A DNA stretch of 34,896 nt, from assembly GCA_026196615.1 (NCBI GenBank), contig JAPHSW010000192.1:1-34896 (forward strand), in the 5' to 3' direction. The notes beneath the pieces are model-generated. The model was not told the origin of the DNA and did not search any database. It was given only the letters and a program-made list of their open reading frames with translations. The first letter of the stretch is position 1, and every line of letters begins with the position of its first letter. Below are positions 5,749-31,851 of this stretch, piece by piece. The position numbers were made by a program, and so were the translations under genes. This DNA comes from Gammaproteobacteria bacterium. Its GTDB lineage: Bacteria > Pseudomonadota > Gammaproteobacteria > GRL18.

Positions 5749-6513
5749 ATGCCAAAAAGATACTTATTTCTTTTTTGTATATTACTGAGTTCACTCAACA
5801 TTTCTATTGCTGATGAAATTCGGATCGCAACAGCAAGTAATTTTACTGAACCTTTAAAAATCATCGCTCAACAATTTGAACAGAAAACTGATCATAAAGT
5901 CACTATTATTTCTGGTTCAACTGGTAAACTCTATGCTCAAATAAAACATGGTGCACCATTTGATGCCTTTTTTTCCGGAGATATTAAAAGAGCAGAGTTA
6001 TTAGACAAAGAAAATGTCGCAATACCCAATAGCCGCTTTACCTATGCCATAGGAAAATTGGTTTTATGGAGTCCAATAAAAAACTACATCGACCAACAGG
6101 AACAAACACTTCAGCACAAACAATTTCGATATCTTGCCATTGCAAATCCTAAACTCGCTCCTTATGGTAAAGCAGCTCAAGAATTTTTACAAAAACAACA
6201 TCTTTGGGAACAATTAAAAAATCGTATGGTTCGTGGTGAAAATATTAGCCAAACTTTCCAGTTTGTAAAAAGCGGTAATGCTGAATTAGGTCTTGTGGCA
6301 TACTCTCAAATCAAGAAACCCAATTCTCCCATTGAAGGCTCTTATTGGAAAATTCCAAAGACATTTTATACACCAGTCAAACAACAGGCAGTACTACTGA
6401 ATGATAAAAAACCTGTTCATGATTTTTATGACTTTGTTAAAAGCCCTGAGTCACTCAATATCATTAAAAGTTATGGCTATAGCCTTGATATAAAAGATTC
6501 CCATGCTCAGTGA
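5749..6513 (+). CDS. modA: Molybdate ABC transporter substrate-binding protein
   Basis: Periplasmic oxyanion-binding protein that delivers molybdate (or tungstate) to ModB. 254 residues with a cleavable signal peptide (hydrophobic about 5-20, cleavage near IADEI at 21-23). The ligand-site motifs are visible: [10 protein letters not shown] after the first strand, [11 protein letters not shown], and [11 protein letters not shown], which are the family's anion-binding loops. The start lies 5 bp after the metA stop and overlaps its ribosome binding region (GGAATAG), so it may be read through from metA. The end overlaps modB by 11 bases, typical of coupled translation. Confidence 0.93.
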
Positions 6514-7195
6514 TTCCGATCTAACAGCTCTTCTCATCACATTAAAGCTAGCGGCTGTAACAACCGTCATTTTGCTTTTAATTGGGACACCCATTGCCTG
6601 GTGGCTGGCACGTTCTCGTTGGCGTTATAAATTTTTTATCGAAGCTATCATTGCTCTACCACTTGTTCTCCCCCCCACTGTTCTGGGGTTTTATTTATTA
6701 ATTGCACTTGGTCCCAATGGTCCAATTGGTGGCTTTATGCAACTGTTTGGTGGTCAACCACTTGCCTTTACTTTTACAGGTTTAGTCATTGGCTCAGTTT
6801 TCTACTCAATGCCATTTGTCATACAACCTTTGCAAAGTGCCTTCCATGCCATTGGACACAGACCTCTCGAAGTTGCAGCCACTCTTGGAGCATCACCTCT
6901 TGATCGTTTTTTTACTGTAGCTGTCCCTCTTGCTCGCCCAGGTTTTTTAACAGCAACCGTTCTCGGCTTTGCTCATACTATTGGTGAATTTGGGGTTGTA
7001 CTCATGATTGGAGGTAATATTCCAGGACAAACTCAAGTCTTGTCTATCGCCATATATGATCACGTAGAAGTACTTGAATACTCTCAAGCTCACTGGTTAT
7101 CAGGTGGCTTATTAATATTATCATTTCTCATGTTGATCAGTGTTTATGCACTTAATCGTCGCTTTGCATTACCGAAAATTGGTGGTGATTTATAA
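6503..7195 (+). CDS. modB: Molybdate ABC transporter permease
   Basis: Inner-membrane channel subunit of the ModABC importer. 230 residues with about five membrane helices (12-32, 48-70, 86-105, 147-165 and 198-215). The cytoplasmic coupling motif for the ATPase is seen at [20 protein letters not shown] followed by ARPG, the EAA loop of this family, and [11 protein letters not shown] is also characteristic of ModB. It overlaps modA by 11 bases, and its stop (7193-7195) is one base before the modC start, so the three genes form one unit. Confidence 0.94.
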
Positions 7196-9111: not shown

Positions 9112-10002
9112 TCATTGCTTATTTATCTGTAAATCAGTCATTTGATGTTGATCATCAAGAGTAATAATAGCCTCTGCTATTTTAGGGATTGTTATCAAAC
9201 AATGTTCTGTGAGACGTTGATAATGTTCAATAAATATTTTTAATTGTTGTTCATTTAACACATTTTTTTTGGAGCCAAACTCCATTTCAAGTGATTGAGC
9301 CAACTTCTTTTCTTGTAATAAACGCCACTCATAAACAACATCAAAACTGGGTGCTTTTAACATGATAAGCCAATTAATTTTTTTAAAAAGCAGTTGGTAT
9401 TCATCAAGTAAAAACTGATTTATAGCTTTTCGCCAGATTCCTTGTTCATCCTCAATTTTTTCTAAATTATTAATGGGTTCATATAATATTTTGCTATCAA
9501 GTGGTGGAGCCCCGACACACCATCCTTCAAATATAATAATGGATACTGGCTCTTGAATTTTATCCCATTCATGTTCAGGCCTTCTATCATCAGTTGCTTT
9601 ATCAAAACGAGGAATATGAACCGGTTCATTTTTGGACGCAGTCTTTAACTTATCTATGGTTTGAAGTGCTAAATTAACATCATGGGTTCCAGGAACACCA
9701 CGGGTTACAAACAAGGGGTGAACTGTTTGAGATAATTGAGTGCGCTTCTTTTTGGTATGATAAAAATCGTCAATTGAAAGAATGGCCACGCGATGATCAT
9801 ACCTGGTTTCTAGTATTGCTTTTAAAATAATAGCAGAAGTCGTTTTACCAGAACCTTGTGAACCATTAATTCCAATAACAGAGGTGGAATAATATCGAGA
9901 CTGTTTATCAATCCTTGTAGCAAGAGGCTCAAGATAAAGCGAAATATAGTTTGAATACTTCTCAGGTAAGGCAAGTTTTTTTATTAAATCTTTATAATTC
10001 AA
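9112..10002 (-). CDS. D-glycerate 3-kinase family P-loop kinase
   Basis: 296 residues. Walker A GSQGSGKT is at 47-54, followed by ILSIDDFYHTKKKR, the DDFY signature of the PRK/uridine kinase/glycerate kinase group. HPLFVTRGVPGTHDV and IPRFDKATDDRRP match class III glycerate kinases (plant GLYK, E. coli YggC), and IIFEGWCVGAP is the Walker B region. The expected reaction is ATP plus D-glycerate to 3-phosphoglycerate, which would feed serine or photorespiration-like salvage; bacterial members are mostly uncharacterised. The start is TTG (10002-10000), supported by AAGGA ending nine bases upstream; no ATG fits. It follows the hybrid kinase gene by about 100 bp, with a possible promoter of its own. 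Confidence 0.83.
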   Translation of the reverse strand: MNYKDLIKKLALPEKYSNYISLYLEPLATRIDKQSRYYSTSVIGINGSQGSGKTTSAIILKAILETRYDHRVAILSIDDFYHTKKKRTQLSQTVHPLFVTRGVPGTHDVNLALQTIDKLKTASKNEPVHIPRFDKATDDRRPEHEWDKIQEPVSIIIFEGWCVGAPPLDSKILYEPINNLEKIEDEQGIWRKAINQFLLDEYQLLFKKINWLIMLKAPSFDVVYEWRLLQEKKLAQSLEMEFGSKKNVLNEQQLKIFIEHYQRLTEHCLITIPKIAEAIITLDDQHQMTDLQINKQ

Positions 10003-10105: not shown

Positions 10106-12814
10106 TTATCCCAATAACTCTTCAACCCTTTTTAAAAGAGTTTCTGAGGTATAAGGTTTCGTCAGCATTTTTTTATGCAATGAGTCATCAACAAAATTTA
10201 TATGGCGATCATCATTAAAACCGCTAGATAACTGAATTTTAATATCTGGATATTTTTCAGAAACAATTTTAGATAGTTCATAACCATCCATTTCTGGCAT
10301 TATCACATCACAGATCATTAGTGATATTTTTTTTCTGGTTTGACTTAGCTGCAATTTTTCAAGTGCTATTTTTGCACTATCAGCAGTTATCACATGATAC
10401 CCATGTAAATTTAAAATTTCTTCTCCTAATAACAAGAGTGAAGGTTCATCATCAACAAGTAGGATTTGTTCACCATGGCCATCCAAAATTTCAGAACCTG
10501 TCTCATTATCAGATAATTGTTTTATTGCTTGTATCGGCTTTTCTGTATATTCAGGAAAATACATGGAAAAACTGGTACCATGATCAAGCTCAGAATACAC
10601 ATTGATAGCACCTTCAGCACTTTGAACAAACCCATAAACCTGACTTAAACCTAAACCAGTTCCAATGTCATCTTTTGTGGTAAAGAAAGGATCAAATATC
10701 TGACTACGCGTTTGATCATCCATGCCTGTACCAGTATCAGTGATAGACAAATGAACATGCGGACCAGGCTTAAGATTATGTAATTTAGCTTGTTCGGTCG
10801 ATAAAACAACATTTTCAGTATAAATTGTTAATGTCCCACCTTTTGGCATGGCATGCATTGCATTAATACAGATATTTATAAGAGCATCTTCCATATCACT
10901 TTTATCAAACCAAAGCTTCCAGATGTCATCTTGTAAATTATATTTTAAATCGATCTTCGAGGTTAAACTTTTTGCAAGCATGTGTCGGTTATCATTTAAT
11001 AAAAGATTGAGGTCAACCGCTTCTGATTGCATTTCTTTACGTCGAGAAAAAGCCAGGAGTTTTTGAGTAAGCTTTTTGCCACGCTCACCTGCATGTTGAA
11101 TTTCATCAACATATTTAGATACTTTAGTATTGTCAGTTACTTTCATTGAAATAAGTTCTGAATAACCTAAAATCACTCCAAGCATATTATTGAAATCATG
11201 AGCAATACCACCTGTTAACTTACCAAGCGCATCCATTTTTTGTGAACGACGAAACTGTTCTTCCTGATATTTTTGCTCAGTTCTATCTGAACAAGAGCAG
11301 ATATAGTGTTGAGTCCCATTTTTTTCGAGGCTAAGTCTTGCCAAAGAAAGACGAACAGGAAAAGTTTTCCCATCTTTTCTTTCTGCATCCAAATCAACAA
11401 ATACTTCATTTTTATCTTGCCGACGTATACCTATCAAATCAAAAACATCTTCTTCTTCATTAGAACGACTATCAGGAATTAAAGAATATAAGTTGGATGC
11501 CGAAAGCAGCATTGCAAATGATTTGTTTTTGAGCTCAGAAAAAGTATAACCAAATATTTTTTCTGCAGCTGGATTACACGTTAAAATAAGACCATTTTCA
11601 TCAAGAGTTAACACACCATCAAGAATATTGTCTAAAATTTCACTTTGTTCCCGCTCTTTTTCAAGAAGTATATTTTCAAAATTCTTTTGTTGGCTTATAT
11701 CACGAGCAATACCTTCAACTGACACCACATGATCATCTTTGTCAAAAACCGGAACCTCTGTAATATTTAGCCAGATTTTATCACCATTTTTATGATAAAT
11801 TTCAATTTCATAAGATGGTTGCAAGTGACCTTTAATGCTATTTTGTATGTGTCGCTTTGCTAGTTCATTAACAGGATGGAGTGTAAGAAAGCTTGCACAA
11901 TCAATTTTAAATTCTTCAGGTGTATAACCTAAAATTGTTTGTACTGACTCTGTTGCATAAGTAAAAACACCTTCACAATCATGAGAATACAAGAAATATT
12001 CACTACTAAGACCTTGAACTAAGCGTCTAAATTTAACTTCACTTTCGACTAAAGCTTCATGAGACTGTATGACTTTTTGTTCATGTTCTTTGATACTTAA
12101 CAACATCAGGTTAAAATCCTGACTCAAAGTACCAATTTCATCCTGTCTGTCAATAACACATTTAACATCACGTTCACCCCTAATCACTTGTTGAATAGCG
12201 AGTGTTAATCGTCGTATTGCACTGGTCAAATTTCTTGCCATAAACCAGGCAAAAATAATCCCTATGCTAATAGCAATCATGGTATAAATGAGACCATTTT
12301 TAGTTACCAAATCAAGGCTCTGAACAATTTCATTACGATTGACACCAACTCGTGCCCATCCAATTTGTTGATTTTTTATCATCACAGGAGCAGCAACATC
12401 TATAAAGGAAGAGTTATTGATCAATAACTGAGTTCTTGAAGGCAAATTGAATAAAGATTGACTAATTGAATCCTTAATGAATAAGCCAACTTTCTCTCTC
12501 TGTGTATAGCCTAAAACCTTACCGTTCATATCAAGAAACATCGCATAATCCAGCCCAGGAAATCGTGACTGAGAGCGAATAACTTCTTCAACACCAACGA
12601 TATCATTAGATAAAATCCAGGATGTACCGTTTGCAGCCAAAGTTTCGGCTAAACCTTTAACCTGAGATGTACTCTGTTCAATCATGAATTCACGTTGACG
12701 CTCGACCAGATCAAAAACAAAAATACTCATCAAAACAGCATGAACTAATGCAATTCCAAGAATAAGTTGTCGCGCAACAGATGCTGTCCAGATATTTTTT
12801 AATTCATTTATCAT
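10106..12814 (-). CDS. Hybrid sensor histidine kinase (TM-sensor-TM-HAMP-PAS-PAS-HisKA-HATPase-REC)
   Basis: 902 residues. TM1 is about 17-37, an extracytoplasmic sensor part about 38-172, TM2 about 174-196, and HAMP about 195-248. PAS1 is about 258-375 (LGYTPEEF, ending RDISQQK) and PAS2 about 388-515 (FGYTFSEL, ending CSDRTEQK). The phosphoacceptor is His539 in GGIAHDFNN. The ATP-binding domain has an N-box with Asn651, DTGTGMD (693-699) and GTGLGLS (718-724). A C-terminal receiver has DDE at 788-790, phospho-acceptor Asp836 and Lys886. The HDFNN H-box places it among kinases that commonly carry fused receivers. Its gene is the last of a trio with a lone receiver and a PhnD-like lipoprotein, which suggests that the lipoprotein binds a ligand and presents it to the sensor domain. 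No DNA-binding output is present in the trio. Confidence 0.92.
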   Translation of the reverse strand: MINELKNIWTASVARQLILGIALVHAVLMSIFVFDLVERQREFMIEQSTSQVKGLAETLAANGTSWILSNDIVGVEEVIRSQSRFPGLDYAMFLDMNGKVLGYTQREKVGLFIKDSISQSLFNLPSRTQLLINNSSFIDVAAPVMIKNQQIGWARVGVNRNEIVQSLDLVTKNGLIYTMIAISIGIIFAWFMARNLTSAIRRLTLAIQQVIRGERDVKCVIDRQDEIGTLSQDFNLMLLSIKEHEQKVIQSHEALVESEVKFRRLVQGLSSEYFLYSHDCEGVFTYATESVQTILGYTPEEFKIDCASFLTLHPVNELAKRHIQNSIKGHLQPSYEIEIYHKNGDKIWLNITEVPVFDKDDHVVSVEGIARDISQQKNFENILLEKEREQSEILDNILDGVLTLDENGLILTCNPAAEKIFGYTFSELKNKSFAMLLSASNLYSLIPDSRSNEEEDVFDLIGIRRQDKNEVFVDLDAERKDGKTFPVRLSLARLSLEKNGTQHYICSCSDRTEQKYQEEQFRRSQKMDALGKLTGGIAHDFNNMLGVILGYSELISMKVTDNTKVSKYVDEIQHAGERGKKLTQKLLAFSRRKEMQSEAVDLNLLLNDNRHMLAKSLTSKIDLKYNLQDDIWKLWFDKSDMEDALINICINAMHAMPKGGTLTIYTENVVLSTEQAKLHNLKPGPHVHLSITDTGTGMDDQTRSQIFDPFFTTKDDIGTGLGLSQVYGFVQSAEGAINVYSELDHGTSFSMYFPEYTEKPIQAIKQLSDNETGSEILDGHGEQILLVDDEPSLLLLGEEILNLHGYHVITADSAKIALEKLQLSQTRKKISLMICDVIMPEMDGYELSKIVSEKYPDIKIQLSSGFNDDRHINFVDDSLHKKMLTKPYTSETLLKRVEELLG

Positions 12815-12841
12815 ATGATATTGTTCTAATAACCAGTTAGG

Positions 12842-13792
12842 TTAATTAATCGGTCTCACTTTTTTTATAAACTGTTTTACAAAGTCACGCACAGGTTGAT
12901 AAGTCGCATTGTTTGCTGTTTCAAATCGTGATAAGTGCATATTTGATAAAATTGCTTTTCCTTCATTCGTATTGTGAAAATCAAATAGCAATTGACTGAC
13001 TTTATTAACTATAGATTCAGGAACATCTGGAAGAACAATTAAACTATTATTCGGTAAAAAAGAGGTTTGCCAAATCACCTTTAGCTCCCGTTTTAATTCA
13101 GGGCGCTCCTGGGATAAAGCTTCCCAGGGTGGTGGCCATGTTGAACCCGCCACAGTATTTTTAAGATAGACATTCATTATAGAAGATTCCTGAGAGCCAA
13201 CATAACGATTATCCAAATCTTCCATGACATTAACACCATGTGATTGTAAATAATACTGAGGCATCATAGTCGCAGCTAATGCTGTGGGGGCAGGATAACT
13301 CACGGCTTTACCAATTAAATCAGTTTCTTTTTCAATACCACTATCCTTACGCACTAAAATAATTCCACGAAAATTTTCATCATCTGCCATTTTTCCAAAG
13401 ACTTTATAACCCTTATCAACAGCATTAATCGTCTGAAAAGGATTAGGAAGAGAAAAATGAAACTTATGTGCATACAGTTTTTCATCATAAGTCGCATAGT
13501 TTCTTGATGCTTCTAACTTAAACTGAGCATAAGGAATATTATCACTGAGATAATTCATCAAAGGACCAAATACCTCCTGTAACCTTTGAGGATTATGTAA
13601 TGGATGAATACCAAAAATATATTCAATATTTTTCATTTTTGGAGGTGTTATCGTAAATTCTGGTATGTAATTTTTAGAGTTATTATATTCCTTATTATGA
13701 TCATCGTTACATGATAATAGCAGTAAAGTAGTACCTATAAAAAAAAATAAAAAAAGGTGTTTAAAAAAATAGGTCAGCTTGATGAAGTTCAT
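12842..13792 (-). CDS. PhnD-like substrate-binding lipoprotein, probable sensor partner
   Basis: 316 residues with a lipoprotein signal: MNFIKLTYFF, a hydrophobic core and lipobox L-L-S-C with the acylated cysteine at 28. The mature part matches PhnD-type (phosphate/phosphonate-like) binding proteins: YIFGIHPLHNPQRL at the start, LVRKDSGI, a DLIGKAVSYPAPTA segment, and a late LPDVPES. No ABC permease or ATPase gene accompanies it. Instead it lies between a receiver gene (26 bp upstream) and a hybrid histidine kinase gene (27 bp downstream), so it more likely serves signalling than transport. The ligand cannot be told from the sequence; PhnD-like proteins bind varied oxyanions and organic ligands. 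Confidence 0.83.
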   Translation of the reverse strand: MNFIKLTYFFKHLFLFFFIGTTLLLLSCNDDHNKEYNNSKNYIPEFTITPPKMKNIEYIFGIHPLHNPQRLQEVFGPLMNYLSDNIPYAQFKLEASRNYATYDEKLYAHKFHFSLPNPFQTINAVDKGYKVFGKMADDENFRGIILVRKDSGIEKETDLIGKAVSYPAPTALAATMMPQYYLQSHGVNVMEDLDNRYVGSQESSIMNVYLKNTVAGSTWPPPWEALSQERPELKRELKVIWQTSFLPNNSLIVLPDVPESIVNKVSQLLFDFHNTNEGKAILSNMHLSRFETANNATYQPVRDFVKQFIKKVRPIN

Positions 13793-13818
13793 ATAGTATT
13801 ACAATGCTTAAAAGTTAT

Positions 13819-14190
13819 TTATAAAGTATTCTTTAAGTTTTCTAAAAGTTGAATAACATCTGAAATATTTAATGGCTTGGTTAGAGCATCAATAACTTCT
13901 AAGTTATATCCTTGTGCAATTCGTTTAGCCGTTTGCAATAGAACCTCATCAAACCCACTCATGAGAATGAGAGAGGCTTTACTTTGTCTTTTCCCTAATT
14001 CTGAGATAACTTCAATACCATCAATATCTGGTATAGTCAGATCAAGAAAAATAATGTCAGCCTCAAAATTTTGTTCAAGAAACTTTCTGGATTCAGTATA
14101 AATGACCGTGTCAAAGCCACACATATGAGCTACTTCAGCTAACATTTCAGCAAATTGGAATTCATCATCAATGATTATAACTTCAGGCAT
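13819..14190 (-). CDS. Stand-alone response regulator receiver domain
   Basis: 123 residues, a single CheY-like receiver: acidic pair Asp8/Asp9, phospho-acceptor Asp50 in IIFLDLTIPDIDG, MSGF for the Thr/Ser position, and Lys105 in LTKP. No output domain follows. It is the first gene of the receiver, lipoprotein and hybrid kinase set. It may be a phosphate sink, a relay between the hybrid kinase and another regulator, or act by protein contact. Confidence 0.9.
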   Translation of the reverse strand: MPEVIIIDDEFQFAEMLAEVAHMCGFDTVIYTESRKFLEQNFEADIIFLDLTIPDIDGIEVISELGKRQSKASLILMSGFDEVLLQTAKRIAQGYNLEVIDALTKPLNISDVIQLLENLKNTL

Positions 14191-14309: not shown

Positions 14310-15095
14310 TTAATTATTAAAGCCAATATGATTGAATAGTTTTTCATCAAGAAACTTCAGCAGTAAGTGCTCATTTGAATGAATAAAAAAATGATCACCC
14401 GCTAACTTCTTACTCTCAAAGTGACCATTTGTTAATTCCTGCCATGCTGAAACATGACTGCCTTGAGCTTTATGATCATTATCTCCTTCAAAAGCAGTAA
14501 TATTAATTGCTAATTTATTATAGTCATCATCATGAGAATAGGTATCACATAACTGAAAATCTGCACGTATTACAGGTAAAATCAGACTCATTAAGTCTTT
14601 ATTATCCAACACCTCAGCAGGTGTTCCGTTAAGTTGACGCAATTTCGATATCAATTTTTCTTCAGATAAGTCATAAATTGGCTTAGCATCTGAAGCAATG
14701 TGCATCGCCCTACGCCCGGATACAAATAAATGTGAAGCTTGTTGTAATCCCCTATTCTGAATTTCCTGAACTAATTCGTATGCTAACAAAGCCCCCATAC
14801 TATGACCAAATACAGCATAAGGTTTATCCATATAGTCACTCATACTATCAAGCACTTCTGTTACAATTTGTTTATGATGAGTATATGGCTTATCGGCATA
14901 TCGAGTTCCTCGCCCTGGTAATTGAATGGCACAAACTTCAATCCATGGAGATAGTTTTGACTGCCATGGAAAAAAAATATGTGCCCCACCTCCAGCGTAA
15001 GGAAAACAAAAAAGTCTCAAACGAGCTTCAGGGTTTGGTTTTGGAAAACAGAGCCATTTATTTGTTTTTTTTGTAAAGCTATCCTTGCTTTTCAT
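14310..15095 (-). CDS. Type II thioesterase (GrsT/RifR-like alpha/beta hydrolase)
   Basis: I choose ATG 15095, which has GGAG six bases upstream; the ATG four codons earlier (15107) has no such site. This gives 261 residues. Family marks are LRLFCFPYAGGGA, IQLPGRGTR, the nucleophile elbow GHSMGA with Ser99, a late Asp (Asp207 in EGDNDH) and the catalytic His235 in GDHFFI. Such enzymes hydrolyse mis-primed or stalled acyl groups from carrier proteins of NRPS/PKS lines, or release products. No synthase, carrier protein or phosphopantetheinyl transferase gene is in the window, so its partner must lie elsewhere or it has another acyl substrate. It is on the same strand as, and 119 bp ahead of, the receiver gene. 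Confidence 0.88.
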   Translation of the reverse strand: MKSKDSFTKKTNKWLCFPKPNPEARLRLFCFPYAGGGAHIFFPWQSKLSPWIEVCAIQLPGRGTRYADKPYTHHKQIVTEVLDSMSDYMDKPYAVFGHSMGALLAYELVQEIQNRGLQQASHLFVSGRRAMHIASDAKPIYDLSEEKLISKLRQLNGTPAEVLDNKDLMSLILPVIRADFQLCDTYSHDDDYNKLAINITAFEGDNDHKAQGSHVSAWQELTNGHFESKKLAGDHFFIHSNEHLLLKFLDEKLFNHIGFNN

Positions 15096-15342
15096 TACTA
15101 ACTCCATGTTTTTGATTTTGAGTCTTTTTCAAATGAATTTTATCCAACAATAAATTAAAACACCATTAGGGAGTCACCTAGATCATCCCCTGAAAAACCA
15201 TTGCTATGATCTCATTTTATAAAAAAAGACTATAAATACACACATTTATAGTGCTTTTATTACAACGATTTGATATAGTTGAAATATCACAGTATTTTAC
15301 TTGGTTATTATTATTTATATTTAAACAAATCAGGAATTTAAG

Positions 15343-15693
15343 ATGAGCACAAAAATATATCATAACCCACGTTGTTCCAAGTCTCGCAAGACATTACAAC
15401 TATTAGAAGAAAATGGTGTAGAACCTGAAATCATCGAATACTTAAAAACTCCACCTTCTAAAAGTGAGCTAAAAGCCATTCTACAGGCATTAGACATGAA
15501 CCCCAGAGATCTAATGCGCAAGGGTGAAGCAGAATACAAAGAAAACAATTTAGCTGATGAATCCCTTAGTAATGATCAACTGATTGACGCCATGCTTAAA
15601 CATCCTAAGTTAATTGAGCGACCAATTGTGGTCACACCTGAAAACAAATTTGCTCTAGGACGTCCACCAGAAAATGTATTAGATATTATTTAA
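15343..15693 (+). CDS. arsC: Glutaredoxin-dependent arsenate reductase family protein
   Basis: 116 residues of the ArsC/Spx thioredoxin-like fold. The catalytic cysteine is Cys11 in YHNPRCSKSR; Arg in RPIVVT and the GRPPENV loop complete the oxyanion site. ArsC reduces arsenate to arsenite using glutathione and glutaredoxin. This short form is closest to E. coli YfgD-like stand-alone members, and no arsR, arsB or acr3 gene is nearby, so a role in arsenic resistance is not assured. The start has AGGAA seven bases upstream. Confidence 0.88.
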   Translation: MSTKIYHNPRCSKSRKTLQLLEENGVEPEIIEYLKTPPSKSELKAILQALDMNPRDLMRKGEAEYKENNLADESLSNDQLIDAMLKHPKLIERPIVVTPENKFALGRPPENVLDII

Positions 15694-29519: not shown

Positions 29520-29548
29520 TTGACAGGTATTTTATTAATCTCTAGAAT
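29520..29548 (+). promoter_or_regulatory. Sigma-70 promoter of the B12 uptake operon
   Basis: TTGACA at 29520-29525, a 17-bp spacer, and TAGAAT at 29543-29548, matching consensus at 11 of 12 positions. Transcription would start near 29554-29556, just before the first paired base of the riboswitch (29559), so promoter and aptamer positions support each other. Confidence 0.8.
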
Positions 29549-29558
29549 GGCCTCAAAT

Positions 29559-29778
29559 TTTTATGGTGTTTTATTTCTTGTCTTCACAAAAAATAAAACT
29601 GGGAAGTTGGTTAAATTCCAACGCTGCCCCCGCAACGGTAATTGATTGTACGATATTAAAGCCACTGAATGACTCAACGTTAGAACTGATACGTTAATCG
29701 TTTGGGAAGGCATTATCACCAAGTTTTTATAAAGTATTACTACTTTATCCTTCATTAGCCCGGAGACCTGCCATAAAA
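29559..29778 (+). ncRNA. Cobalamin (AdoCbl) riboswitch aptamer
   Basis: The closing P1 stem pairs TTTTATGG (29559-29566) with CCATAAAA (29771-29778). Between them are the conserved parts in order: GGGAA with GGTT...TTCCAACGC, the B12 box-type GCCCCCGCAACGG at about 29625-29637, GCCACTG, GGGAAGGC, and AGCCCGGAGACCTGCC at about 29757-29772. It binds a cobalamin in the nascent mRNA and lowers expression of the following B12 uptake genes when the vitamin is plentiful. The next gene is a TonB-dependent receptor, as expected. Confidence 0.95.
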
Positions 29779-29806
29779 AACTACCTTAGCTATGCGGTGG
29801 GCGTGC

Positions 29807-29829: not shown

Positions 29830-29964
29830 TGTGACTTTCACCATTCCGGCCTTTTGATCCTTTGCTACAGAATTCATGTAATATCATAACATGTCATTCT
29901 GATTACTCCCCCACATAAATTGTTATACATTTATACACACGGGGTGTGTGTTTCAGGGAACATT

Positions 29965-31851
29965 ATGACTCAAAACTTACCCAATTTTCTGACTCTCTCA
30001 ACAATAGCAAGCTCAGTATTAGCAGCTTGTTTGAACCCAATTAATGTCCATGCAGGACAAATTGATAACAGTCCACAAATTATTGTAACAGCCAACCGAA
30101 CCGCCACAACAGTTGATGAAACACTTGCACCTGTCAGTATTATTACTAAAGAAGACATCCAGCGCTCTCAGGCCAGTTCTGTGACAGACATATTAAAAAC
30201 AACTCCCGGCATGAGTCTTTCTGGCAGTGGTGGTTTTGGTAGTAGTTCAGGTTTTTCGATGAGGGGCACCAATACTGACCATATACTTTACCTTATTGAT
30301 GGAGTTCCCATAGGTTCTGCTACCAGTGGTCAGACATCAATCCAATACCTTCCCGTCTCACAAATTGAACGAATTGAAGTTGTGCGTGGACCACGATCTA
30401 GCCTATATGGTTCTGATGCCATTGGAGGTGTTGTTCAAATTTTTACCAATAAATCCGGTGAAAAAAAGATTACAGCTAGTGCTGGATATGGTTCAGACAA
30501 TACCCGAGAAATGACCGCCAGTTATTCTAATGGAAACGAGAAATCTTATTTTTCAGGTGGAGTTTCCACATTTAACACTGATGGTTATGATTTTTACGGT
30601 TATCAGACAGGTTTTCCTGCACCAACTGCAAATGCAGCTGATGAGGATGAGGATGGCTATAAAAATTATTCAATCTCTTTAAATGGTGGTTACGAGTTGA
30701 ATGATTCCTTGAAACTATCCGGTGTATTTTTACGAAGTCAGGGTGAAAACGAGTTTGATGGCTATGCCAATAAAGATTCTCAAACTGAATTTACAGATCA
30801 AATAATGAGTGGTATTGCTGATTATAAAGTAAACGATATCTTCAACACACAGTTAAAAATAAGCCGTAGTTATGATAAACAATATAATCAGTTACAAGAA
30901 AACACATCAAAAACACGTTTTAATACCAAATCAGACTTAGTCAGCTGGCAAAATGAAATCGTTATCCGTGAATACGATTTATTAACACTTGGTCTGGATT
31001 ATAAAGACGAGAAAATTGACAGCAGTACTGACTATTCTGAAGAAAGTCGCTGGAATCAGGCAGCATTTGCGCAATATCAGTATGTAGGCGATGTATTCGA
31101 TACACAAGTATCTTTCCGACATGATGATAACGAGGAATTTGGAACCCATAATACCTGGAGCTTTGGCACAGGTTTTAACCTTGATAAAAATGTCCGAATT
31201 ACAACATCTTATGGAACAGCATTTAAAGCACCTACTTTTAATGATATGTATTGGCCTGCTGATTTCTTTTTTACCGGAAACCCAGATTTAAAACCAGAAG
31301 AATCTGAAAGTTTTGACTTTGGTGTGGAATTAACAACAGGCGAAACAATTTGGACTGCCCATTATTTTGACACAAGCATTAGAAACTTAATTACTTATGT
31401 TAATTCCTACCCCTCTATTAGTAAAATGGAAAATGTCAGTAAAGCCGATATTGATGGTCTTGAGTTAACCGTTTCCACTGATATTTATGGTTGGAAATTA
31501 AATGCTAATGCCTCATTTACTGATCCTATAGATACTGAAACTGGTCTAATGTTATCAAGAAGAAGTAAAAGAAACCTGAATATCTCTCTTGATAAATCAA
31601 CAGGTGCCTTTAGCTATGGTGCTTCAGTGATAGCCAGCTCAGAACGTTACAATAAAGTAGGAGAAGATGAGCAATTACCTGGCTTTGGTTACATGAATAT
31701 AAGAGCAGCCTGGGAGATGAACAAGCAATGGACTATCAAAGCAAAAGTTGATAACCTTTTTGACAAAGAATATGTTCTGTCTCAAAATGGTGGAATTGAC
31801 TATAAACAACCTGATCGTTTTGTATTTGCATCCATCCATTATCAAATGTAA
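29965..31851 (+). CDS. btuB: TonB-dependent vitamin B12 receptor
   Basis: Outer-membrane barrel that imports cobalamin with TonB energy. I start at ATG 29965, which has AGGGA seven bases upstream and a normal signal peptide (cleavage near VHAGQ, about residue 30); the TTG at 29920 lies ahead of this site. 628 residues: TonB box PQIIVTANR at 37-45, plug domain about 45-160 (SMRGTNTDHILYLIDGVPI, VRGPRSSLYGSDAIGGVVQIFT), then the barrel to the end, with the TonB-receptor C-terminal motif LFDKEYVLSQ. The last residues are SIHYQM, ending in Met rather than the usual Phe/Trp. The riboswitch ahead and the ABC genes behind specify B12 rather than iron. Confidence 0.94.
   Translation: MTQNLPNFLTLSTIASSVLAACLNPINVHAGQIDNSPQIIVTANRTATTVDETLAPVSIITKEDIQRSQASSVTDILKTTPGMSLSGSGGFGSSSGFSMRGTNTDHILYLIDGVPIGSATSGQTSIQYLPVSQIERIEVVRGPRSSLYGSDAIGGVVQIFTNKSGEKKITASAGYGSDNTREMTASYSNGNEKSYFSGGVSTFNTDGYDFYGYQTGFPAPTANAADEDEDGYKNYSISLNGGYELNDSLKLSGVFLRSQGENEFDGYANKDSQTEFTDQIMSGIADYKVNDIFNTQLKISRSYDKQYNQLQENTSKTRFNTKSDLVSWQNEIVIREYDLLTLGLDYKDEKIDSSTDYSEESRWNQAAFAQYQYVGDVFDTQVSFRHDDNEEFGTHNTWSFGTGFNLDKNVRITTSYGTAFKAPTFNDMYWPADFFFTGNPDLKPEESESFDFGVELTTGETIWTAHYFDTSIRNLITYVNSYPSISKMENVSKADIDGLELTVSTDIYGWKLNANASFTDPIDTETGLMLSRRSKRNLNISLDKSTGAFSYGASVIASSERYNKVGEDEQLPGFGYMNIRAAWEMNKQWTIKAKVDNLFDKEYVLSQNGGIDYKQPDRFVFASIHYQM

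Follow-up and report, generated by a model that had tools for sequence, protein, structure and literature searches.

A PhnD-fold lipoprotein and an sCache_3 hybrid histidine kinase as a probable two-protein receptor with exchangeable outputs

The study of the protein pair XAC2383-XAC2382 reportedly found an interaction with the periplasmic cache domain, as well as homologous pairs with varied output modules. In another system the binding protein, NspS, is PotD-like. NspS-MbaA is a polyamine receptor in which the separate binding protein feeds a membrane protein that changes cyclic diguanosine monophosphate (c-di-GMP) (PMC9993111); AioX-AioS-AioR, ArxXSR and ArrXSR place a PhnD-fold binding protein beside a sensor kinase for the sensing, not the import, of arsenic oxyanions (PMC5908839); the tetrathionate and thiosulfate kinases TtrS and ThsS sense with a PhnD-like domain (PMC5408782); and in TorT-TorS and LuxP-LuxQ a structurally distinct binding protein acts on the sensor kinase (PMC5908839). 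Activation of kinases by neighbouring binding proteins is described as common (PMC11113362). The present work concerns a 34,896-nucleotide (nt) stretch of DNA, referred to as the window, which is the entire contig JAPHSW010000192.1 (C7) of a gammaproteobacterial genome (GCA_026196615.1; 4.96 Mb, 288 contigs). It encodes in succession a stand-alone receiver, a binding lipoprotein of the PF12974 (PhnD-fold) family and a hybrid histidine kinase, of which the lipoprotein and the kinase probably form a two-protein receptor with the lipoprotein as its outer half.

A profile built from six orthologues of the lipoprotein retrieved 336 related loci from the genome collection, the best 80 of which were retained; LAA[TC][MI]MPQ and N[RQL]YVGSQE served as search patterns for lipoprotein loci. 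The same sCache-HAMP sensor module follows the lipoprotein immediately in 77 of the 80, a locus being counted as paired where the module (residues 1-250 of the window kinase) begins on the same strand between 60 nt before and 440 nt past the end of the lipoprotein match. Two of these 77 modules are partial, cut by the contig end in L077 and limited to the first 43 residues in L091, and the three unpaired loci are L086, where two lipoprotein copies precede the sensor, L087, where the contig ends, and L106. The distance from lipoprotein stop to sensor start has a median of 4 nt, with 76 of 78 values between -20 and +70. Since this pairing recurs so widely, and the full order of receiver, lipoprotein and kinase recurs in loci L067 and L068, the trio is not a chance arrangement. 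The hosts of the 80 loci, assigned by record title and NCBI ranks, belong to Pseudomonadota (gamma, beta, alpha and Magnetococcales), Campylobacterota, Thermodesulfobacteriota, Myxococcota, Nitrospirota and Muiribacteriota, individual names being uncertain because many are metagenome bins; the nearest named lipoprotein loci come from uncultured Gammaproteobacteria.

The pairing was also examined from the side of the sensor, with a profile of 57 sensor modules run against 57 related genomes including the window's own. Among the matches listed by score, seven exceeded 200 bits, the next reaching 95 bits. Five of the seven adjoin a lipoprotein gene and one (G018:C274) adjoins a fragment of a lipoprotein gene that contains an internal stop; the seventh (G005:C337) lies near a contig start, and the lipoprotein of that genome lies near the end of another contig. 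The assignment of the lipoprotein to the outer domain of the kinase rather than to a transporter, made in the preliminary description, is thus borne out by the 77 pairings, by their reciprocity in the 57 genomes and by their persistence whatever the output domain. Across 34 kinase loci, lipoprotein distances correlated with sCache distances at r 0.67 and with those of the ATPase domain at r 0.53 (partial r 0.54 versus 0.29), which is support for contact, not proof. Among 13 more distant PF12974 loci (L053-L065), picked from the upper part of the match list in relatives, 10 have a kinase or a GGDEF protein next, the partner in L057 being judged by its likeness to that in L058; the others are L056, L061 and L065. 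At L056 (6057-7598, - strand), PF12974 is fused to a von Willebrand A domain, and a DUF4261 protein comes next, which is an unusual use of the fold.

The trio (Table 1) lies entirely on the - strand, with gaps of 26 nt between receiver and lipoprotein and 27 nt between lipoprotein and kinase, so that coordinates and Pfam matches agree with the row of receiver, PhnD-type lipoprotein and hybrid kinase, spaced by 26-27 bp, reported earlier. The accompanying description of the kinase as a transmembrane-PAS-PAS hybrid holds for the tandem PAS domains and the receiver; it left unnamed the HAMP domain and the sCache_3 domain, a known sensor fold to which residues 38-172 correspond. The motifs of an active system are all kept, namely the H-box, the ATPase motifs, DVIMP in the kinase receiver (D836) and DLTIP in the lone receiver (D50), so that, judged by sequence, no member of the trio looks dead. 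The kinase scored below the NCBIfam CckA cut-offs (315.7 and 235.5 bits versus 1000). An Rfam scan gave zero matches within the trio, and promoter-like sites between 9800 and 15400 numbered 27 versus 26.1 expected, so that none of them could be used.

Table 1. Features of the receiver-lipoprotein-kinase locus in window coordinates (aa, amino acids).
Feature	Position	Strand	Basis
Stand-alone receiver, 123 aa, D50 acceptor, lineage-specific companion	13819..14190	-	Response_reg 5.4e-13; same spot in L067 and L068 only
PF12974 (PhnD-fold) binding lipoprotein, 316 aa	12842..13792	-	PF12974 4.9e-52, aa 60-298
Lipobox Cys28 codon	13709..13711	-	LLLSC in translation
Hybrid histidine kinase, 902 aa	10106..12814	-	
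Kinase periplasmic sCache_3 (sCache_3_2), aa 44-167, proposed lipoprotein docking partner	12314..12685	-	PF17203 5.2e-9
Kinase HAMP, aa 191-242	12089..12244	-	PF00672 1.9e-7
Kinase PAS no. 1, aa 285-370	11705..11962	-	PF08447 4.5e-13
Kinase PAS no. 2, aa 399-513	11276..11620	-	PF13426 5.9e-27
Kinase HisKA, aa 530-592, H-box HDFNN at aa 539	11039..11227	-	PF00512 8.9e-10
Kinase HATPase_c, aa 637-755	10550..10906	-	PF02518 8e-16
Kinase C-terminal receiver, aa 784-898, D836	10121..10465	-	PF00072 1.3e-16

By gene content, the receptor pair is a plug-in module with exchangeable output. Scoring with domain profiles seeded from Pfam-confirmed stretches divided the 80 loci into 49 kinases (some of them truncated), 21 GGDEF proteins (most with EAL) and 10 unscored loci in which the partner was truncated, missing or free of a recognised output. 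Pfam analysis of the window kinase and 73 partners (n = 74; L076, L077, L087, L092, L101, L106 and L136 were left out as having no clean partner open reading frame, ORF) detected the cache domain PF17203 (sCache_3_2) in 67 proteins, HAMP in 64, HATPase_c in 45, HisKA in 44, GGDEF in 20 and EAL in 16. On a tree of 81 lipoprotein sequences, 71 of them labelled by output, 8 output changes were counted versus a mean of 18.3 in shuffles, which indicates that output is clustered yet repeatedly switched; many forks of this tree are weak, and 3 changes are forced by well-supported branches alone. One contig of a cultured Thiomicrorhabdus cannonii strain carries a kinase and a GGDEF-EAL version (L108 and L116) separated by about 12 kb, the two lipoproteins sharing 55.5% identity, and genome G018 has a lipoprotein of 47% identity ahead of an sCache-HAMP-PAS-GGDEF-EAL protein.

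The structural model of the lipoprotein (predicted local distance difference test score, pLDDT, 94.4) matched PtxB (Z 28.7), PhnD (27.1; 7s6g), ArrX (26.8), AioX (25.4) and XAC2383 (25.2), in agreement with Foldseek, and from this fold alone a small anion is judged the likeliest ligand class. Near-invariant stretches comprise HPLHNP (63-68), EASRNY (94-99), PNPxQT (116-121), PAPTALAATMMPQ, YVGSQESS and TWPPPW (218-223), conservation counts being inflated where a stretch overlaps the two search patterns and free of that bias elsewhere; the cleft motifs are near-invariant from Gammaproteobacteria to Campylobacterota and Nitrospirota. The ligand-site His157 of E. coli PhnD (3s4u, the open form without ligand, is the H157A mutant) corresponds in the alignment to Gln201 of the lipoprotein, and Gln occupies this position in 81 of 81 rows, an inflated count given that the column falls within a search pattern. 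Cysteine is found in the Cys28 column in 60 of the 81 aligned rows; Cys28 is the only cysteine of the window lipoprotein, and no other conserved cysteine column occurs in the 81 rows. The model of the sensor (pLDDT 91.8) matched CitA (Z 15.3) and WalK domains, its top row being an integrative full-length WalK-YycH model (Z 18.2), and comparison of the sCache pocket with DcuS or CitA gave weak matches only (best E 0.0017). Tandem lipoprotein pairs precede one sensor at L086 (5971-7865) and L130 (923-2823), perhaps conferring two ligand specificities on one receptor.

Proteins of the PF12974 family match models named for binding proteins of phosphonate ATP-binding cassette (ABC) transporters, a reading that is probably wrong here, where the protein has the look of a receptor subunit. 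PF12974 is indeed named for importers, and all 79 genomes behind the 80 loci possess PF00528 permeases, so the lipoprotein might still serve an ABC importer encoded elsewhere and merely be co-regulated with the kinase; this is nevertheless very unlikely in view of its surroundings. Conserved linkage to ABC permease genes in relatives, which the preliminary description had named as counter-evidence, was searched for with a home-made profile (10 sequences of the window's genome, with the positive control, the window modB, among its seeds), and 863 kb of the 80 loci yielded a single permease, in L067, corresponding to the modB near the window's pair. Within the window, linked permease and ATPase genes were found only in modABC, which has its own binding protein and is collinear in L049; with the window ModC as query, ABC ATPases were found among the 80 loci in L067, L111 and L100 only. 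In two sets of flanking ORFs (235 in all, 150-600 aa, up to two per side, some being short sensor partners), PF00528 was not among the 25 most frequent of the 142 and 140 families, a result in which at most about two ORFs per set could hide one. Nor does any of the six other PF12974 matches in the window's genome, the weakest of which (C168) falls below the Pfam cut-off, lie on a contig that carries one of that genome's 12 PF00528 matches. All six have ties to signalling: five belong to ORFs of 647-1317 aa that also encode kinase or GGDEF domains, and the sixth, a 275-aa ORF on C230, overlaps a GGDEF ORF by 4 nt. Against the PhnD equivalog TIGR03431, the lipoprotein scored 69.6 bits (cut-off 261.1).

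Other alternatives keep the sensory role and divide it differently. Direct sensing by the sCache domain, with the lipoprotein only delivering or concentrating the ligand or setting a threshold, would fit the nearness of the sensor model to ligand-binding CitA- and WalK-type domains, but the lipoprotein cleft stretches are near-invariant whereas few sensor columns are (W66, D71, G74, G213 and E226 in 57 rows), which makes this improbable while remaining compatible with a second ligand. The structural likeness to ArrX and AioX, together with the presence of arsC in both the window and L049, could suggest a sensor for arsenic oxyanions akin to AioX and ArrX, whose target would be the neighbouring arsC (15343-15693). 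This reading was not adopted as the default and appears extremely improbable: AioX binds arsenite via Cys106 (PMC5908839), whereas the mature lipoprotein has no conserved cysteine, and among the five orthologue loci L048-L052 (two of them short) arsC occurs in L049 only. The cysteine criterion is most telling for AioX and ArxX, since in ArrX identical pocket residues hold arsenate, and arsenate binding in the ArrX manner is still conceivable. The arsC product (TIGR00014 7.3e-46) is a cytoplasmic detoxification enzyme, and no aio, arx or arr oxidoreductase was named among the part of the window's ORFs that was scanned. A different question is posed by the lone receiver. The preliminary description took the trio for a three-part device. 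In a true device of that kind, this receiver would be the dedicated and required phosphate acceptor of the kinase; the gene order that the window shares with L067 and L068, the receiver preceding the lipoprotein by 26, 28 and 15 nt respectively, and the conserved receiver residues speak for it. Among the 80 loci, however, just these 2, which are the nearest kin, carry the receiver directly upstream. None was found in the remaining 78, of which L066, L134 and L122 offer little or no upstream sequence. Other kinase loci have different neighbours: among 42 with at least 600 nt beyond the kinase, the next gene encodes a receiver-HD protein (REC-HD) in 5, REC-GGDEF in 1, a protein with only a receiver recognised in 2 and REC-HATPase in 1, so an adjacent regulator, where present, is often a c-di-GMP enzyme, and most loci are without one. 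A three-part device can hold locally and is a possibility that we lean against, yet the conserved unit is of two proteins.

For the two-protein receptor of lipoprotein and kinase, the following mechanism can be proposed. Briefly, the membrane-tethered lipoprotein, PhnD-like in its modelled fold, would capture a small periplasmic ligand, probably an anion, and then dock on the sCache_3 domain of the kinase, as the conserved pairing suggests. Docking may alter the signal that reaches the kinase core by way of HAMP and PAS, with an activating or an inhibiting effect, and phosphate would move to the kinase's own receiver and on to another regulator, perhaps through a separate histidine phosphotransfer (HPt) protein. 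The small upstream receiver of this lineage would likely be a further acceptor or a phosphate sink. In relatives, by gene content, the same receptor pair drives GGDEF/EAL enzymes instead. The earlier suggestion that two receivers and no output domain imply a relay to a protein elsewhere is plausible; stand-alone HPt frames are present in the window's genome on C20 (117 aa) and C180 (124 aa). A bolder proposal, tentative and on balance unlikely, is that one widely shared receptor for a single extracellular anion reports into c-di-GMP, directly through GGDEF(-EAL) proteins or via kinases feeding REC-HD and REC-GGDEF regulators. Genus names, taken without statistics, identify many hosts as sulfur, iron or methane oxidisers, which hints at a redox-gradient compound as ligand.

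Several points weigh against the two-protein receptor. The contact between lipoprotein and sCache domain is a proposal drawn from the conserved pairing, and shared descent, too, leads to correlated distances. As the 80 loci are the top matches among 336, the pairing rate describes at most the closer half of the family; L106 has a lipoprotein without a sensor, and the lipobox is clear by a strict pattern in 57 of the 80 loci. In addition, the sCache fold itself binds small molecules in relatives such as CitA. The L106 lipoprotein (5971-6891, + strand) comes from a record labelled Helicobacter cetorum, whose isolate name suggests a cave metagenome bin.

Around the trio, a type-II thioesterase-like gene (14310-15107, - strand; PF00975 1.4e-44) ends 119 nt upstream of the receiver on the same strand; L049, with otherwise conserved flanks, lacks it, and it is likely a local insertion. 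After the hybrid kinase lies a gene for a P-loop kinase of the PRK/uridine-kinase type (9112-10002, - strand, with a TTG start as called), which is missing at that place in L049. Farther away, a cobalamin riboswitch (29547-29789, + strand; RF00174, 89.2 bits) precedes a TonB-dependent receptor gene (29920-31851), an ordinary B12 uptake locus.

A search of a limited literature set turned up no description of the lipoprotein-sensor family. As the same receptor is found on kinases and on c-di-GMP enzymes alike, screening a single lipoprotein for ligands would be informative for many signalling proteins (336 related loci) and would also yield parts for built sensors.

Compared with described systems, the window resembles XAC2383-XAC2382 in that a membrane signalling protein is paired with a periplasmic protein of the PhnD fold, structurally close to XAC2383: the binding-protein gene lies beside that of the sensor in the same direction, both here and in 77 of the 80 loci, and the partner has a periplasmic cache domain. 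It differs in having a lipoprotein and a hybrid kinase, and in sequence the lipoprotein is nearer to PhnD, PtxB and ArrX (E 1e-19 to 1e-13) than to XAC2383 (E 7.3e-5). Unlike the AioX, ArxX and ArrX systems, the trio has neither an arsenite-binding cysteine nor a DNA-binding regulator, and the output in the family is often GGDEF/EAL. NspS-MbaA follows the same logic with another binding-protein family, whereas the partner in the window is a kinase. In TtrS and ThsS, the PhnD-like domain is fused within one chain, whereas the window encodes a separate lipoprotein, and fused versions also occur in the window's genome. At L158 (1814-6828; G000 contig C44), a PF12974-kinase fusion is followed by a 204-aa receiver protein and adjoined by a 641-aa ORF with a twin-arginine-like start, in resemblance to TtrSR/ThsSR loci. 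Taken together, the receptor architecture is one already known from XAC2383-XAC2382, AioX-AioS and NspS-MbaA, and the pair in the window is by its sequence a member of a large family.

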